Assembly: GCA_026390815.1 (NCBI GenBank)
Contig: JAPLFH010000033.1
Location: 1 to 64,000 of the forward strand
DNA length: 64,000 nucleotides
Direction: 5' to 3'
Source of the DNA: Ignavibacteriales bacterium
GTDB taxonomy: Bacteria > Bacteroidota > Ignavibacteria > Ignavibacteriales > SURF-24
A model generated the notes under the pieces. It ran no database searches. It was given only the letters and a program-made list of their open reading frames with translations, and was not told where the DNA came from. Shown one piece after another: positions 30,297-57,014 of the stretch; position 1 is the first letter of the stretch; every line of letters starts with the position of its first letter. The translations under genes were made by a program, and so were the position numbers.

Positions 30297-33170
30297 TTAC
30301 TTCATCAAAATCATCTTCTTCATCCGTGAGTAATTTCCAGCTTTTATCTGATAGAAATAAACTCCGCTTGTTAGTTTGCTTCCATCAAATTCAACTTCAT
30401 AACTTCCAGTATTCTTTTCTTCGTTTACTAATGTTGTTAATTCTCTCCCCAGAATATTAAAAACCTTTAGTGTTACAAATGATTGTGCTGGAATTGAAAA
30501 TTGAATTTTTGTTGTTGGATTAAATGGATTCGGATAGTTCTGCATTAATTCAAATTGATCAGGTATTCCTTTCACTTCATTTTTTTCAACAGGCGTTGCT
30601 TCATTAAACTTATTAAGCAAAATATTTTGAACAAATTCCTTCGCTTGTTCCTGCTTCATATAATAAAGTGGAAAGCTGAGCGTAATAACTTTATAATCAG
30701 TGCCAAGATATTCTACACCTACCGGCAAGCCTTTCATGCTTCCAGCAACGGTTGTCGAGTCGAACCTGGAATCAAATTTATAAATTACATTACCATTATC
30801 ATTCGGTTCAATACTTTCAATGTCCTTTAGTTGAAAGCTGGTTGCAGAATTCAATTTTGAAGAATCAGTAAAGATAGAAATATAATCGTCATCGGCAGAT
30901 ATCGCTCCGCTAAATCGCGTGCTAAATACTTTATTAACCCGTTTGATCTTAAGAAAGTCATAGAAAAAGTCACCAGCAAAAAACTCCCTGGGATATACAA
31001 TATTTTTTTCAAAAGTTTTGGATGGTAAAAATCCTGAAATTATTAATCTTCCACCGAACTGCAAATATCTAACAAGGTCATACAGTGTACTACCCGTACC
31101 AGAAAAAGTCGAATAACTTTCGTCACCGTGGACAAAGATTGTAGAATAAGCACCCAGATCAGCCAACTTAGGCAAACCCTCTTTGGCAATATCAAAATCT
31201 TTTTTGTTAAAGTTAGTCAGCAGTGAATTATAAAAATCGTCCACTTCTGCGTCACTAGGTTTTCCGATTGTTCCGTTTCCATCAGCAGTTTTATCAACAA
31301 CCAATATTCCCTGATCCAATGAAACCGAACGCGATTTTATTATTGCAGAACTACTTTCATTTAAAGTGCTGTCGATAGCTTTAATGCTGTAATAATAATA
31401 AATCCCGTTTTGTGGTGTTGAGTCTAAAAACAAAGTGTCTTGAACAATTGATGAGTTTAGCTTTATATAATTTCCACTTTCATTTGAAGAACGATAAATG
31501 TTATACCCGAGTAAATCGTTTTCTATGTTTGGCTTCCATCTGATTTCGATGGAATGCATTTGTGGCACATCTACCAACCCAGTTGGCAAAACGGGAACTA
31601 ATTGAGGTATTAAAGATTTCTCCACAATCATACTGCTGTTTCCATCATTATCAACAGCAGAGATGCCGATATAATATTTTACTCCTTTGGTAAGATTATC
31701 TAACACCATTGTAGTGTTTGTTGTTGAAAGTACAGCATCATAAACCCCGGACGATTTTCCGATATAAATATTATATCCAGCCAGATCCGTTTCTGCGCTT
31801 GGCTGCCAGGAGAGTTTTAAAGAGTTTCCGGTTCCAAGATCAACAACAGAAAAGTTTTTAACTTTTGATAACATTATATCTGTATTCAAAAGTGTAGCAC
31901 AAGAACCTTTAATTACCTCTGCGCAATAACTAATGTTGCAATTGTCAATTATGTCTCTTGGGGAATGATAATAAGGACTGAAAGAATATTCCTCAAAATA
32001 TACGGCAGGAAACCCATACGACCAGAAAGCATAACTATCCGAACCGCTGCTATTCAGTGACCCAGTTTTGGCATTTAAAACAGAAAACTTCTGCGTACTT
32101 TGTTTTGCAATTTCTCTATAATCTTCTGCCCCGGTATAATAATTAATATTTATGTTACCTGATTGTAGTGAACCCGAAAAATTACTAATCATATCGTGAT
32201 TGATCATCAGTTTAATTTTTTTGCCGGCAGAATAAGCTTTTTGTGCGTAATCAAAGCCACCAAATAAACCATATTCTTCAGCCGCGAATGTAACAAACTT
32301 AATTGTTGTTTCAGGTTTATATCCCATCCTACTTAGCACCCTGGCTATTTCTAAAACTGCGGTTGTACCGCTTGCGTTATCATCCGCGCCCGGTGCAATA
32401 AGGATAGGATTGCCTGAAGAATAGGAATCATGATGTCCCCCAACAACAATTTCTTCATTAGAGGTACTTAAGCTGTGGAGAGTTGCAACAACGTTTTTTT
32501 GCCACGTACCCTGGTAATTAAAAGAATCTATTTTAACATCGGTATAACCCATTTTTTGGAACTGCGATTTGATCCACAGGGAAACCGAATCTTTCGTTTG
32601 TGCAAACAGAAAACGGGTTTTAAAATCCTGCAAGCTTTTAATAAAAAAACGAACCGTATCTGGATTTACCTGTTCTACAATTTTATTAATCAAAGAATCA
32701 TTTTTTACGGATATGGTTTGACCCTCATCGATTTTATTGTTCTCAAAATAGAATGGTTTTCTTTTCATCGCAATAAGTGAATTATAATTAGAAATTAATT
32801 CTTCTGAATTTATGTCTGGATTTTTAAGCACAAAGTTTTTCCCGTCATTATAAATTACATTCGTTGGATTGAAAACGGGGTTCAATTCATTTAAATGAGG
32901 ACTGGTGATATAATATTTATTCTCAAGTGGATTATCATCAACGATGTTATACTGAATATGCTCCAAACTAAAGCTATTAAGAATTACTTCCGACACTTCT
33001 GTAATTAAAACATTATTAAAAATATGATAAACAGGAAGCTGAAATTTTTCCAATTTATTAAGTCCGTTCTTGTCGCTCAGTTCAACTGATATGAGATAAT
33101 TTTTTTGTTGTGGAAAGAGATTGATAGAAATAAGAAATGCGAAGAGAAATAAATTGATTGTTTTTACCAT
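30297..33170 (-). CDS. Secreted M28 aminopeptidase with FN3 domains and T9SS sorting tail
   Basis: A 957-residue secreted protein. Residues 1-22 form a signal peptide ending LFPQQ. An M28 zinc-peptidase domain at about 210-430 has VGGHHDSYSS, GADDNASGTTAV, AAEEYGLFGG and a late His in YHSPRD. Two fibronectin-III domains follow (about 440-530 and 540-625). A region of about 640-860 begins GILVVDKTADGNG and has the look of a ThuA/gatase-like fold, but I cannot assign it. The last 85 residues are a T9SS type-A sorting domain (NYPNPFNPTTKIQFSIP ... MKKMILMK). It probably degrades peptides at the cell surface. It is a single gene, convergent with rtcB. Confidence 0.88.
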   Translation of the reverse strand: MVKTINLFLFAFLISINLFPQQKNYLISVELSDKNGLNKLEKFQLPVYHIFNNVLITEVSEVILNSFSLEHIQYNIVDDNPLENKYYITSPHLNELNPVFNPTNVIYNDGKNFVLKNPDINSEELISNYNSLIAMKRKPFYFENNKIDEGQTISVKNDSLINKIVEQVNPDTVRFFIKSLQDFKTRFLFAQTKDSVSLWIKSQFQKMGYTDVKIDSFNYQGTWQKNVVATLHSLSTSNEEIVVGGHHDSYSSGNPILIAPGADDNASGTTAVLEIARVLSRMGYKPETTIKFVTFAAEEYGLFGGFDYAQKAYSAGKKIKLMINHDMISNFSGSLQSGNININYYTGAEDYREIAKQSTQKFSVLNAKTGSLNSSGSDSYAFWSYGFPAVYFEEYSFSPYYHSPRDIIDNCNISYCAEVIKGSCATLLNTDIMLSKVKNFSVVDLGTGNSLKLSWQPSAETDLAGYNIYIGKSSGVYDAVLSTTNTTMVLDNLTKGVKYYIGISAVDNDGNSSMIVEKSLIPQLVPVLPTGLVDVPQMHSIEIRWKPNIENDLLGYNIYRSSNESGNYIKLNSSIVQDTLFLDSTPQNGIYYYYSIKAIDSTLNESSSAIIKSRSVSLDQGILVVDKTADGNGTIGKPSDAEVDDFYNSLLTNFNKKDFDIAKEGLPKLADLGAYSTIFVHGDESYSTFSGTGSTLYDLVRYLQFGGRLIISGFLPSKTFEKNIVYPREFFAGDFFYDFLKIKRVNKVFSTRFSGAISADDDYISIFTDSSKLNSATSFQLKDIESIEPNDNGNVIYKFDSRFDSTTVAGSMKGLPVGVEYLGTDYKVITLSFPLYYMKQEQAKEFVQNILLNKFNEATPVEKNEVKGIPDQFELMQNYPNPFNPTTKIQFSIPAQSFVTLKVFNILGRELTTLVNEEKNTGSYEVEFDGSKLTSGVYFYQIKAGNYSRMKKMILMK

Positions 33171-51361: not shown

Positions 51362-52642
51362 ATGAAAAAGATTTTAATTCTAAATGTAATATTAGCATCA
51401 ACTTTAGTAATTTTTTTATTTCAAAATGGCTGTCAAAATGATTCTCTCTCTCCTCAACAGAACCGTAAACCCAAAATTGAAAGCTTATCAGCTAATCCAG
51501 CAACTATTGAGACAGAACAGCAAACCGCATTAACCTGCGTAGCCACAGATGCGGATGGAGATAATCTAACAATAACCTGGGCGTCGCAAGATGGTAGTTT
51601 TCCGAATGGCGACACAGGTATTTCTGTAAACTGGAAAGCATCTGTTGTAAAAGGCAGCTATGCAATTACAGCTACTGTTAGTGATGGAGAAGTAACGGTG
51701 ACTGATATAGTTACGGTTACAGTTCAAGACGGCAGCGCAAATTTGTCGCCAAATCCGCCATCCAATCCAAGTCCGGAAGATAATGCCACAAACCGACCAA
51801 AGGCTTTAACATTAAGCTGGACTTGTAATGATCCTGACGGAGATCCTTTAACTTATGATGTTTATTTTGGAACAAGCAGTAACCTAACTACAAAAGTTTC
51901 ATCAGATCAAACAGAAACAAGCATAACAAGAAATGGTCTTAACACCAACACTCCATATTACTGGAAGATAGTTGCAAAGGATAATCATAGTAACTTAACA
52001 CCCGGTCCTGTTTGGAAGTTTACGACAACCCCTGGGGGAACTGTAGGATCAATTTGTCCTGGCTTACCAACTGTAATTGATTCGCGCAACGGCAAAGTAT
52101 ACAACACTGTAAAAATTGGCAATCAATGCTGGTTAAAAGAAAATCTTGATATTGGAACCAGAATAGATGGAAGCAAGGAACAAACTAATAATAGTACAAT
52201 TGAAAAGTATTGCTATGATAATCTCGAATCTAATTGTAATACATATGGAGGGCTGTACCAATGGAATGAAGCAATGGCGTACAGCAAAACACCAAGCATA
52301 CAGGGAATTTGCCCTGGTGGTTGGCACATACCAACAAAAGCAGAATTCGATACATTAGCAAGAGTAGTAAATAATGATGGTAACGCTTTAAAAGCATTAG
52401 GACAAGGAATTGCCCCAAATGGTGAAGGAACAAACACGAGCAGTTTTTCCGTTTTGTTGGCTGGCTACCGGTACGATGATGGTCACTTCTATAATTTAAG
52501 TGACGGCACGTACTTTTGGAGTTCGAATGAGATTGATGTTACATATGCCAGCTACCTGAACCTGATTGATTATGATAGTTATATGCACTTCCTGGCTGAT
52601 TACAAGGCTTACGGTTTTAGCATTCGGTGCGTTAAGGATTAG
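51362..52642 (+). CDS. FISUMP-domain lipoprotein with Ig/FN3-like repeats
   Basis: A 426-residue protein. A lipobox near residue 23 (FQNGC) follows a hydrophobic leader, so it is probably a surface lipoprotein. An Ig/PKD-like domain covers about 38-122 (PKIESLSANPATIETEQQT). A fibronectin-III-like domain covers about 133-222 (YDVYFGTSSNLTT). The C-terminal 180 residues are a FISUMP domain, with CWLKENLDIGTRIDG, YGGLYQWNEAM, CPGGWHIPTKAEF and the terminal SIRCVKD; paired cysteines suggest disulfides. The role is unknown, probably binding. A near-copy of the FISUMP domain follows in the next gene. Confidence 0.85.
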   Translation: MKKILILNVILASTLVIFLFQNGCQNDSLSPQQNRKPKIESLSANPATIETEQQTALTCVATDADGDNLTITWASQDGSFPNGDTGISVNWKASVVKGSYAITATVSDGEVTVTDIVTVTVQDGSANLSPNPPSNPSPEDNATNRPKALTLSWTCNDPDGDPLTYDVYFGTSSNLTTKVSSDQTETSITRNGLNTNTPYYWKIVAKDNHSNLTPGPVWKFTTTPGGTVGSICPGLPTVIDSRNGKVYNTVKIGNQCWLKENLDIGTRIDGSKEQTNNSTIEKYCYDNLESNCNTYGGLYQWNEAMAYSKTPSIQGICPGGWHIPTKAEFDTLARVVNNDGNALKALGQGIAPNGEGTNTSSFSVLLAGYRYDDGHFYNLSDGTYFWSSNEIDVTYASYLNLIDYDSYMHFLADYKAYGFSIRCVKD

Positions 52643-52696: not shown

Positions 52697-55570
52697 ATGA
52701 AAAAGTTAATACTGATTTTGTTAATGCCATTTGCACAGTTTTATATTCTATCTGCCCAGACAGTAACGGGCAAATTAGTTAATATAACAGGAGAAGGTTT
52801 ATCTGGTTTACAACTGCAACTTTATATTTCACCAAATGTTTACTCAACAACTTCTGGTATTGATGGCTCTTTTACTTTCGCGAATATTTCTGATGTAGAA
52901 ACAGAAAACACTCTTCCATCAGGTTATAATATTTCTAATAATTATCCTAACCCATTTAATCCCTTAACAAGAATAAACATTACACTTCCAAAAGCCAGCA
53001 AAGTTAAAATTGATTTGTTCAATATCGTCGGTGAAAGAGTTAGATCTGTAATTGAAAAAGATCTTGGCGCAGGTAATAATTTTGTCGATATAGAATTGAA
53101 TGGGCTAGCTAATGGATTTTACATTGCAAGAATAACAGTTGATCAGCAATATACTGTTCTAAAAAAATTAATGCTTCTATATGGAAGCCAACATTTAACA
53201 AACTCACCTGGTGTTGCAAACTTCCAGCTTAACAAATCATCTGGTGATATAATACTTGATAGTATTGTAGTTAGTTCATTTATAACTGGAAGAAAAACTT
53301 TCACAAATCTTCCCATCCTGACCGGCAAGACAATTGATGTCGGAAATTTAGTTGTAGAATTAATCGTGACAGAAAAATTAGAAAACTTCACAGGTCAAGT
53401 TAAGTTACCAGATAATTCAACTGTTACTTTGCAAAATCTTAGTTTAGTTACGCCTGTAAATGAAGCTAATGTCAATAGTGACGGATCAGTTGTGGTAGAA
53501 TCCTATCAAGATAAATATTCTTTTACTTATTTGTTAGATGAAAAAGATAATATGATAGGAGCATCATATTCAAATCTTACTAACAACTTTGAAATAAACG
53601 AAACTACTACGGCACTAGCTGTGGCTTTTATGTTTCCAGTCGATTGGGGAATTTTTGGTCTTACGCCAAATCAATTGATGATCGAAATATCTCAGCACTC
53701 CAAATTCCCGGCTCTGAAAAATATTGTAAGAGATCTAATGGTTAATGATCCCAAAAATTTAATGAATTATCAGGCACATCCGGATATGTTAAAAACAGCG
53801 GCTGAAATTGTTCTAGATATTGTTCACAATCACGGCGGCATACTTCAAAAAAAAAGTGGAATATCAAACATCCTTTCCGGTCCTGTTTATATTGAGGATG
53901 TGCCCAATGATGGGAAAATAAAAATCATAAACCCCCGCGCAACACCATATGGAATATGTTCCTACAACACAGATAAAAACCCATTAGATAAAGATTCATA
54001 TTCAATGTGGTCACCACCACTTTATGTATATGGAAGGGGTATAAACTGGTGGATATTGCCAACTAATGGAGAAACAGAATACTCAATAGGTGACGGTTAT
54101 TTTATTTTGACGTTATCACGGAGTGACCCCCGGTATTGCCTTGCTAGTGAATTTCTTCCCGTACCTTTAATTGGCGCAATATCATTTGTAATGGACCAGA
54201 ACTGGGAAGTAGCAAATGGAGATTATTATAAAATATTAAAAGCCAATTCTAAATTAAAAGGTTTATTGGGCGGGTTAATCTATGTGACAGCACGCAGTCT
54301 TGGAATTGTATCTGTGGTTGATCCATCTGAAGCAACTGGATTTCTGCAAATAGCTTTAGATTACGGACCCACAGCTGCTGAATTATTCACAGAAGTTACA
54401 CTGTCAGGCGAAAATCTAATGGAGGGAGGTATTACAGCTCTTCCAGGATTTCTTGTTCCAACTATTAAAAGAAATGCGGAAAGAATATCTGTCTGGGCTT
54501 CTAAATATGGTTCAAAAGTAGCGCCCAAAGCATTACAAGCAGGCATTGGAAATTTAACTGTAATATTGGATTTTGTTGGTGCAGGGGAAGATGCTTTCTT
54601 ACTTGGCTGGTTTTTTTATGATTCTTTTTTTTCGGAAAGTGATCTTACATTTTATATTAAACAAAAAAATGGGAATGCCAAAATTTATACTACGCAACCT
54701 GCCCCAACGGTACCCACTGTATCAGGTGTTTTTAATGGAATCGCAGATAGTTCTTATAATTATACTGTTTCACCTTCAGATTCCGACTGTGATAATGTAA
54801 AGTATAAAGTTTATTATGGAGATGGAACAGTAGATGAATCAGATTATGTGACAAACTGTCAAAGTTATATGTTTTCTCATTCCTATCAAGCTGGTAATTA
54901 TGAAATTTCAGTACAAGCAATCGATAGGTTAGGTTTCTCATCCGAACAATCCCAACCGATTAAAGTAACCATTGTATCAACCACATTTTGCCCGGAAATT
55001 CCTACTGTTGCCTATGCCGGTAAAATATATAACTCTGTCCAAATTGGAGCTCAATGCTGGTTAAGAGAAAATCTTGATGTAGGAACAAGAATAGACGGAG
55101 CTGCCGAACAAACGAACAATAGTACAATTGAAAAATACTGTTATGATAATCTCGAATCTAATTGTGATACTTACGGTGGCTTATATCAATGGAATGAAGC
55201 GATGCAATATGTAACAACACAAGGCACAAAAGGTATTTGTCCAACTGGTTGGCACATACCGACTTTAGAGGAATTTCAGACTCTGGCAACAACTGTAAAT
55301 AATGATGGGAATGCTCTTAAAGCTATTGGGCAAGGAACAGGCGCTGGGGCTGGTACGAATATAAGTGGATTTTCCGCATTGTTTGCGGGTTACCGTTATG
55401 AAAGCGGCTTCGCTGGTTTATTAGCTAATTACACTTACAATTGGAGTTCAACCGCGTACGATACCATTATTTATAGATATAGCTTTCACATTTACTATGA
55501 TGGTAGTAATATAGAGCTATCGGGAAACGGTAAGCAATACGGCTTTAGTGTTCGCTGCCTGAAGGATTAG
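52697..55570 (+). CDS. Large surface protein with N-terminal T9SS-like module and C-terminal FISUMP domain
   Basis: A 957-residue protein. The signal peptide ends LSAQ (residue 21). A carboxypeptidase-regulatory-like beta domain covers 22-62. Residues 72-163 form a complete T9SS type-A sorting-like module (NYPNPFNPLTRINITLP ... FYIARITV), but it is near the N-terminus instead of at the end. A long region of about 165-690 is unassigned, with a hydrophobic stretch near 610-640. A PKD-like domain spans about 695-780. The final 175 residues are a FISUMP domain ending SVRCLKD. It lies 54 bp downstream of the first FISUMP gene and is probably in the same operon. Confidence 0.8.
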   Translation: MKKLILILLMPFAQFYILSAQTVTGKLVNITGEGLSGLQLQLYISPNVYSTTSGIDGSFTFANISDVETENTLPSGYNISNNYPNPFNPLTRINITLPKASKVKIDLFNIVGERVRSVIEKDLGAGNNFVDIELNGLANGFYIARITVDQQYTVLKKLMLLYGSQHLTNSPGVANFQLNKSSGDIILDSIVVSSFITGRKTFTNLPILTGKTIDVGNLVVELIVTEKLENFTGQVKLPDNSTVTLQNLSLVTPVNEANVNSDGSVVVESYQDKYSFTYLLDEKDNMIGASYSNLTNNFEINETTTALAVAFMFPVDWGIFGLTPNQLMIEISQHSKFPALKNIVRDLMVNDPKNLMNYQAHPDMLKTAAEIVLDIVHNHGGILQKKSGISNILSGPVYIEDVPNDGKIKIINPRATPYGICSYNTDKNPLDKDSYSMWSPPLYVYGRGINWWILPTNGETEYSIGDGYFILTLSRSDPRYCLASEFLPVPLIGAISFVMDQNWEVANGDYYKILKANSKLKGLLGGLIYVTARSLGIVSVVDPSEATGFLQIALDYGPTAAELFTEVTLSGENLMEGGITALPGFLVPTIKRNAERISVWASKYGSKVAPKALQAGIGNLTVILDFVGAGEDAFLLGWFFYDSFFSESDLTFYIKQKNGNAKIYTTQPAPTVPTVSGVFNGIADSSYNYTVSPSDSDCDNVKYKVYYGDGTVDESDYVTNCQSYMFSHSYQAGNYEISVQAIDRLGFSSEQSQPIKVTIVSTTFCPEIPTVAYAGKIYNSVQIGAQCWLRENLDVGTRIDGAAEQTNNSTIEKYCYDNLESNCDTYGGLYQWNEAMQYVTTQGTKGICPTGWHIPTLEEFQTLATTVNNDGNALKAIGQGTGAGAGTNISGFSALFAGYRYESGFAGLLANYTYNWSSTAYDTIIYRYSFHIYYDGSNIELSGNGKQYGFSVRCLKD

Positions 55571-55631: not shown

Positions 55632-57014
55632 ATGAGATTAGCAGAAAAATTTCCAGTATATAAAGCAGTAAAATTCGCTTTACTAATTGAATTATTTTTT
55701 GTGAATATTTTATATGCCCAAACAATAGAAGTACAAATTTTATGTTCTTCGGGCAAAGCTTTTATATCTAAGTTGAGCGGGGAGAAGACAACTTTACGTG
55801 ACTCCGTTACAGTGATTGCAAATGGCATTTATAAATTCACATTAGATAAAGGCAATTATCATCCCGGTTTTTACCGGCTTTCTTTCAATAAAAATAAATG
55901 GATCGATTTTGTTAACGATGGCGAAGATGTAAGCATAAAAACTTATGCAAATAATGTTTTGGATAGTTTGAAAGTTATAAATTCCGAAAGCAATAAAATA
56001 TATAACTCCTTCATTTTGCTAAATAAGCAATACAAGATTAAGACAGAATTGTTGCAGCTTATCTTAGCCCGCTATCCAAAAGATGATGGATACTATAAAA
56101 CCACTGAACAAAAAGTAAAAGAATTACAAAATGAGTACACTGAATTTGTTAAAGTAATTTCACAAAAAAACCCGAATTCCTTCGTTGCCAGATACATTCG
56201 CTCTGCGCAATTACCGGTAGTAGATTATTCCCTTCCGATTGACAAACAAATAGTTTATCTAAAATCTCACGCACTTGATAAAGTTGATTTCAGCGATGCC
56301 GGATTAATTTATTCTGATGTCTTTTCAAATAAATCTATTGAGTACCTTACTTATTACCGCAATCCGCAACTGCCGAAAGAACTTTTAGAAAAAGAATTTA
56401 TGATTGCTGTAGATACAATTCTGAATAAGGCAAAAGTTCATCAATTAGTTTATCAGCATATTACAGAATATTTGATAGATGGTTTTAAGAAGTTTGGGTT
56501 TGATAAGATCATCGATTACATAATTCAGAACTACGTTATCAAAGATGATCTTTGTCTTGATGAGAAAACAGAGAATTCTATTCAAAGAAGATTAGACCAG
56601 AATAAGAAACTGCCAATTGGTGCAATTGCCCCAAACATTGTTTTACCTGATGCTGGAGGTAAGGACATTGATTTATCAAAGCTGAATAGTGAAAAAGTTT
56701 TAATTGTATTTTATGCAAGCTGGTGCCCTCATTGTAATGAGTTAATTCCAAAGCTGAACGATTTGTACATCAAACAAAAAACTAAATCATTGGAGGTATT
56801 TGCAATTTCAGTTGATACAACAAAATCCGATTGGTTAAATTTTATAAAGAAGAATAATCTAAATTGGATTAACCTCTTTGCAGTAAAAGGATGGGGCAGC
56901 AAAGCCGCATCGGATTATTATTTATACGCAACTCCAACAATGTTTTTATTAGATAAGCAAAGAAAGATAATTTTAAAGCCAACTACGTTTGAAGAAATAC
57001 ATTCATACTTCTGA
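55632..57014 (+). CDS. TlpA/ResA-like thioredoxin-fold protein with long N-terminal domain
   Basis: A 460-residue exported protein, judged from its hydrophobic leader (about 14-30). The C-terminal 130 residues are a thioredoxin-like domain with the active site WCPHC (Cys365 and Cys368) in FYASWCPHCNEL and cis-Pro in ATPTMFLLD. The N-terminal 330 residues have a beta domain then alpha-helical character, as in DUF4369/DUF5106-type proteins of Bacteroidetes, but I cannot assign them firmly. It probably reduces or forms disulfides in the periplasm, perhaps for the cysteine-rich FISUMP proteins upstream. That link is inference from position. Confidence 0.8.
   Translation: MRLAEKFPVYKAVKFALLIELFFVNILYAQTIEVQILCSSGKAFISKLSGEKTTLRDSVTVIANGIYKFTLDKGNYHPGFYRLSFNKNKWIDFVNDGEDVSIKTYANNVLDSLKVINSESNKIYNSFILLNKQYKIKTELLQLILARYPKDDGYYKTTEQKVKELQNEYTEFVKVISQKNPNSFVARYIRSAQLPVVDYSLPIDKQIVYLKSHALDKVDFSDAGLIYSDVFSNKSIEYLTYYRNPQLPKELLEKEFMIAVDTILNKAKVHQLVYQHITEYLIDGFKKFGFDKIIDYIIQNYVIKDDLCLDEKTENSIQRRLDQNKKLPIGAIAPNIVLPDAGGKDIDLSKLNSEKVLIVFYASWCPHCNELIPKLNDLYIKQKTKSLEVFAISVDTTKSDWLNFIKKNNLNWINLFAVKGWGSKAASDYYLYATPTMFLLDKQRKIILKPTTFEEIHSYF

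Follow-up and report, generated by a model that had tools for sequence, protein, structure and literature searches.

A T9SS type A sorting-type module in a conserved position near the N-terminus of FISUMP proteins from Ignavibacteriales

A type A sorting module is taken to indicate a C-terminal export tag, and proteins that carry one are labeled "T9SS type A sorting domain-containing" by annotation pipelines. These tails are reported to be folded domains, and one tail is reported to be sufficient for the export of a fused protein (PMC11285876, PMC12618676). In the first of these sources, the last residues of the tail matter and a lysine is conserved in the last strand; short C-terminal extensions are tolerated, and replacement of the last residues abolishes function (PMC11285876). 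Fib_succ_major, or FISUMP, the second domain of concern here, is described both as similar to DUF1566 and as a target of diversity-generating retroelements (PMC4159848). Literature searches, with most subscription journals outside their scope, returned no report of an internal sorting module.

The window analyzed here is the whole stretch of 64,000 nucleotides taken from the genome of an Ignavibacteriales bacterium. An uninterrupted reading frame with an ATG start, at 52697-55570 on the + strand, encodes a protein of 957 aa in which a sorting-type module is found near the N-terminus. Residues 83-159 are matched both by Pfam Por_Secre_tail (PF18962; 35.8 bits vs. a cut-off of 27) and by NCBIfam TIGR04183 (33.8 bits vs. 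a cut-off of 23), and alignment with real tails sets the limits of the module at about L73 to Y162. The original prediction, made from the sequence alone, of a type A module near the N-terminus with about 790 residues behind it is thus borne out, the number of residues after the module being 795. The protein and its two neighboring genes comprise the following features:

51362..52642, + strand: upstream FISUMP gene with PKD/fn3-like domains, adjoining 52697-55570 (Pfam)
52697..52756, + strand, residues 1-20: signal peptide (sequence; hydrophobic leader in 16 relatives)
52757..52906, + strand, residues 21-70: half-domain like the first half of CarboxypepD_reg (profile below cut-off; hhalign)
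52913..53182, + strand, residues 73-162: T9SS type A sorting-type module, internal (Pfam/NCBIfam match, alignment, model)
53180..53194, + strand, residues 162-166: Y-G-S-Q-H, standing where real tails have their terminal Lys/Arg and stop (family alignment)
53255..53368, + strand, residues 187-224: after-piece with invariant D188 and S189 (low confidence in both structure predictions, mostly pLDDT <50)
53369..54733, + strand, residues 225-679: middle region of about 455 residues, variable in the family, with no recognized domain in the Pfam profile search
54734..54970, + strand, residues 680-758: PKD-like domain, below cut-off (Pfam profile search)
55019..55567, + strand, residues 775-957: FISUMP domain (Pfam and NCBIfam)
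55632..57014, + strand: thioredoxin-like gene, next downstream, with AhpC-TSA/Thioredoxin_8 in its C-terminal part and a WCPHC motif (Pfam, NCBIfam)

As in other FISUMP proteins, the FISUMP domain is C-terminal and scores well over the cut-offs of both TIGR02145 (121.8 bits vs. 41.65) and PF09603 (107.5 bits vs. 33.9). Residues 775-957 form the true C-terminus, where a second sorting tail was looked for; no sorting model from the Pfam and NCBIfam libraries matches there at E<=1. At the other end, the sequence can be read as having a signal peptidase I cut before Gln21, between SA and Q, and inspection by eye finds Q at this putative position in 15/16 members of the family described below.

The internal position stands alone among the modules scored in this genome. 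Of 234 first-look candidates for Por_Secre_tail, 150 matches were scored, and for each of these the surrounding DNA was used to find how far the stop lies beyond the profile match. This distance is <=5 residues in 126/150 and 6-19 residues in 23/150, so that 149 of the 150 scored end <=19 residues before the stop; in the 957-aa protein the same distance is 798 residues, the single internal case among those scored. The 149 real tails close with Lys or Arg in all but two cases (147/149). In 79 of 80 related loci listed from named genomes, the stop is located 78-87 residues past the start of the YPNP motif, and the exception (L070, from Melioribacteraceae MAG10) is itself a member of the family. 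Parts of the T9SS are encoded in the genome, with a SprA_N match of 166 bits and four Peptidase_C25 matches. Within the window, the normal position is exemplified at 30297-33170 by a peptidase-like protein with a textbook C-terminal type A tail ending in KKMILMK. Elsewhere in the window, positions 5610-28129 hold a gene run which, viewed by eye, we take to resemble an anaerobic purine or pyrimidine breakdown cluster (dihydropyrimidinase-like, carbamoyltransferase-like, and xanthine-dehydrogenase-like genes).

When residues 1-223 are used as query, near end-to-end matches are found in at least 8 of 58 other related genomes (up to 36 candidates scored per genome), with 41-59% identity. Profile A1, built from these nine sequences (the query and the eight matches) and run on 164 genomes of the order Ignavibacteriales with up to 18 candidates scored per genome, gives full-length matches to at least 16 proteins in at least 15 genomes (E 1.7e-102 to 1.2e-74); a gap then follows in the list, and the next five matches (6.3e-30 and weaker) are confined to the module region. 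Among 395 genomes sampled from the whole phylum, this genome included and up to 7 candidates scored in each, at least six match at E<=1e-30, all within this order, of which the family spans three families. The 16 proteins have in common the signal peptide, the half-domain, the module, the YG-x-x-H motif (Y162, G163, and H166 being invariant), and the after-piece, with a variable middle region. The signal peptide, half-domain, module, and after-piece make up one inherited N-terminal unit. Since 16 proteins from 15 genomes, each assembled separately, show this arrangement, chance is ruled out, and so is the joining of two genes by an assembly error, which the original prediction had kept in view.

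A search for further proteins in which the module precedes FISUMP had been advised at the outset, and 14/16 proteins with the block carry FISUMP. One of the two others is interrupted by a contig end (G482) and the second, from G048, has a different C-terminal part; the block is therefore not tied to FISUMP. In the G048 protein (L068:6378-7889), two further parts accompany the N-terminal block: a second CarboxypepD_reg-like domain, which at 28.6 bits stays below cut-off, and a stretch that no Pfam profile matches. Inspected by eye, the 15 complete family proteins end in FISUMP (13), in a thioredoxin domain (one, from G003), or in the G048 part (one), and a second tail is present in none. Relatives in which the two parts occur as separate genes were not found among the candidates scored, while separate FISUMP genes with a lipoprotein-type or plain leader or with a classical tail are common.

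Regarding structure, AlphaFold2 models most of the module well, with 10-residue block means of 88-97 over residues 91-160 and of 65-78 over residues 71-90. Used alone, the module range superimposes on T9SS C-terminal domains, among them that of mirolase (8qb1_A; Z 10.1, 77 residues, 1.8 A) and the NucA tail in a T9SS complex (8glk_D; Z 9.7, 75 residues, 2.0 A). Unrelated Ig-like domains equal the top T9SS matches to within 1 in Z, and these matches, which speak for the fold only, support a predicted Ig-like fold of the kind seen in T9SS C-terminal domains. With the whole first model as query, Foldseek returns mostly long and loose alignments because the second part of the model has low confidence; the RemA tail (8gl6_D) is among those listed. 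A sequence search against solved structures gives no match at E<=1. The module resembles the T9SS type A sorting domain (TIGR04183/PF18962) in both profiles, in predicted fold, and in core residues, but differs from it in its N-terminal location, with 795 residues still to come, in having Tyr-Gly in place of the terminal Lys/Arg, and in forming a separate clade.

The segment in front of the module resembles the first half of CarboxypepD_reg (PF13620), although its Pfam score of 18.7 bits is below the cut-off of 32.3. By hhalign, 30 CarboxypepD_reg domains from this genome align through their first half with residues 21-66 at a probability of 97%, and the match stops where the module region starts. 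The after-piece (residues 187-224) can be read as similar in length and strand pattern to a CarboxypepD_reg second half, and it is possible that it represents the second half of an N-terminal domain. In contrast to a true CarboxypepD_reg domain, no second half is detected beyond the module by profile with the after-piece alone, and joining the two halves lowers the Pfam score or leaves it unchanged in the four pairs compared (one query having an extra leading T). V67 is invariant and lies only about six residues before the module, therefore leaving little room for a loose cut linker at this place.

The ancestry of the module was examined in a tree of 202 modules (16 internal ones, 149 tails from the same genome, and 37 others). 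The 16 internal modules form one clade with a support of 0.984 and a stem of 0.79. They keep the core of the tail, namely PNPFNPxT, G112, G126, G140, Y142, and K157, and share replacements at other positions: S139 is changed to N in 15/16, Y144 to A in 14/16, and the terminal Lys/Arg to Tyr (162) in 16/16. Shift flags obtained at positions 73-82 against tails of the same genome are artefacts of where those tails were cut. In the G041/G032 pair, dN and dS are 0.05 and 0.43 for the module, 0.108 and 0.22 for FISUMP, and 0.128 and 0.30 for the middle region; in the G000/G001 pair, they are 0.24 and 2.1 for the module, the latter value being near saturation. The resulting dN/dS of about 0.12 for the module comes from these two gene pairs only, one of them near saturation. 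As the after-piece has a dN of 0.79 vs. 0.24 for the module in G000/G001, the block is unevenly constrained. With its core kept, its end residues replaced, and slow change in two pairs, the module is thus maintained under altered constraints. A recent fusion was also considered and is not supported, since both the spread of the family and the module tree speak against it.

The upstream FISUMP gene (51362-52642) reads as having a lipoprotein-type leader (NGC), so that the window holds two tandem FISUMP genes with different delivery ends. The same variety is found among the six FISUMP genes of this genome, with a lipoprotein-type or plain leader, a classical tail, or the front module; unlike the other FISUMP proteins of the genome, the one studied here has its sorting module in front. 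Downstream, an orthologue of the thioredoxin-like gene occupies the same place in G001, G041, G032, G010, and G030, with 51-65% identity. In G003 (L066:3403-5223), a single ORF combines the block, FISUMP (260-437), and AhpC-TSA/thioredoxin (479-593), the N-terminal part of the thioredoxin-like protein being mostly missing from this fusion. A thioredoxin gene adjoins or is fused to the family gene in 7/15 family genomes; this is not universal, and the members so linked do not form one clade in a tree where several node supports are weak. Thioredoxin-like matches co-occur with the family in 13/15 family genomes vs. 43/149 others (Fisher p 1.8e-5, a test that ignores relatedness and counts the matches listed); among the candidates scored, up to 10 per genome, no such match at E<=1e-30 is found in G047 and G475.

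Of the 47 thioredoxin loci examined, six adjoin family genes, and the other 41 come from 40 regions among the 57 other places listed; four of the 47, L315 among them, have <700 bases of upstream sequence, and one tail-bearing neighbor that lacks FISUMP (L334) was left out of the count. A FISUMP gene is located <=500 bases upstream on the same strand at 18/47 loci, i.e., the six and 12/41 others. By eye, the leaders at those 12 are of lipoprotein type (5), plain signal peptides (4), or of unclear start (3). At L315 (G480), what is seen by eye 17 bases upstream of the thioredoxin gene is the last part of a FISUMP domain together with a classical tail, the earlier part not being open in that frame, and at 28/47 loci no FISUMP gene is found within 500 bases upstream by profile or by eye. 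The thioredoxin gene of G032 is followed by a FISUMP protein (L063 3516-4472) whose C-terminus carries a classical tail. Considering the FISUMP gene upstream at 18/47 loci and its differing leaders and tails, FISUMP and the thioredoxin-like protein are thus a recurrent pair in which the delivery end varies. Other details of these loci can be mentioned: the G041 thioredoxin-like gene (L062:4702-6090) has one in-frame TAG in its 5' part, and a response-regulator gene precedes the family gene in G041 and G032. In G482 and G481 (L333 and L312), that response-regulator gene is followed by the thioredoxin gene with no FISUMP between them (465 and 632 bases), and in G482 the family gene is on another contig than this locus.

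Of the explanations that can be offered, the one judged probable, by a modest measure, is that the sorting-tail fold has been domesticated: it would be a fixed domain with a structural or docking role at the N-terminus of a ligand-binding protein and no longer act as a cleavable end signal. The kept fold, the replaced end residues, and the little room for a cut linker make such a fixed domain the most likely role. A single capture event, placed in an ancestor belonging to the order, would have brought a T9SS sorting-tail fold into secreted FISUMP proteins as part of their N-terminal block, where it stayed for good as a domain; this single capture is suggested by the shared inherited block, the one clade, the predicted tail fold, the kept core, the replaced end residues, and the slow change in two pairs. 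The protein would leave the cytoplasm by means of its signal peptide, and the module would stay uncut, serving as a stalk or docking domain close to the N-terminus of the mature protein. The C-terminal FISUMP domain, probably a lectin-like ligand binder, would be presented at the surface or in the periplasm, and the thioredoxin-like partner may handle the disulfides of this cysteine-rich domain. However, the kept core and K157 are also expected of a working signal. The original prediction had proposed a gene fusion that left the signal stranded or, failing that, another role for the module. The stranded part is not supported as it stands in view of the inherited block, the one clade of modules (0.984), and the slow change of the module in the two pairs tested, which would not be expected of a stranded relic, while the family may have originated in an old fusion or insertion; another role is the better supported of the two, the role itself being putative.

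A working T9SS signal placed internally near the N-terminus is the main rival, a less probable and tentative one. The folded module would be recognized by the translocon and shuttle and would export the whole protein uncut, perhaps holding it at the surface. Such a reading agrees with the residues kept in common with real tails, K157 in the last strand included, with the presence of SprA_N and C25-type proteins in the genome, and with the FISUMP proteins, one of them in G032 and others here, that end in a classical tail. Tails are moreover reported to be folded, sufficient for export, and tolerant of short extensions (PMC11285876, PMC12618676). However, hundreds of residues follow the module here as against a short tag, and replacement of the last residues of real tails abolished function (PMC11285876), whereas the terminal Lys/Arg is Tyr in 16/16 internal modules. 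A cut before the module, the usual removal site, would free only about 50 residues. That an uncut type A module near the N-terminus both exports the protein and anchors it on the surface shuttle, as the first T9SS signal to work from near the N-terminus, is a doubtful proposal.

It is improbable that the block is a removable pro-piece, released upon delivery of the protein by a cut in the variable linker that follows YG-x-x-H: the invariant Y162, G163, and H166 do close the module and a linker variable in length and sequence follows them, but D188 and S189 beyond this linker are invariant along with the block, so that one continuous unit fits better. Least credible is a functionless, stranded relic of an old gene fusion, for although the module resembles a tail with foreign domains behind it and 79/80 of its listed relatives elsewhere are ordinary tails, it is kept in 16 proteins with its core intact and changes slowly in both pairs tested.

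The family carries a known module in a new, conserved position. It represents a natural experiment in which the core is kept and the end residues are swapped, and can help to tell which residues of type A modules serve the fold and which the signal. It is also a warning against calling T9SS cargo by profile alone, and the FISUMP/thioredoxin-like pair, the delivery ends of which are interchangeable, offers a lead on a domain that has received little study. Whether the T9SS reads a domain or an end is made testable with one protein: an uncut N-terminal signal, if true, would show that the T9SS reads the folded domain wherever it is placed and not the end of the protein.
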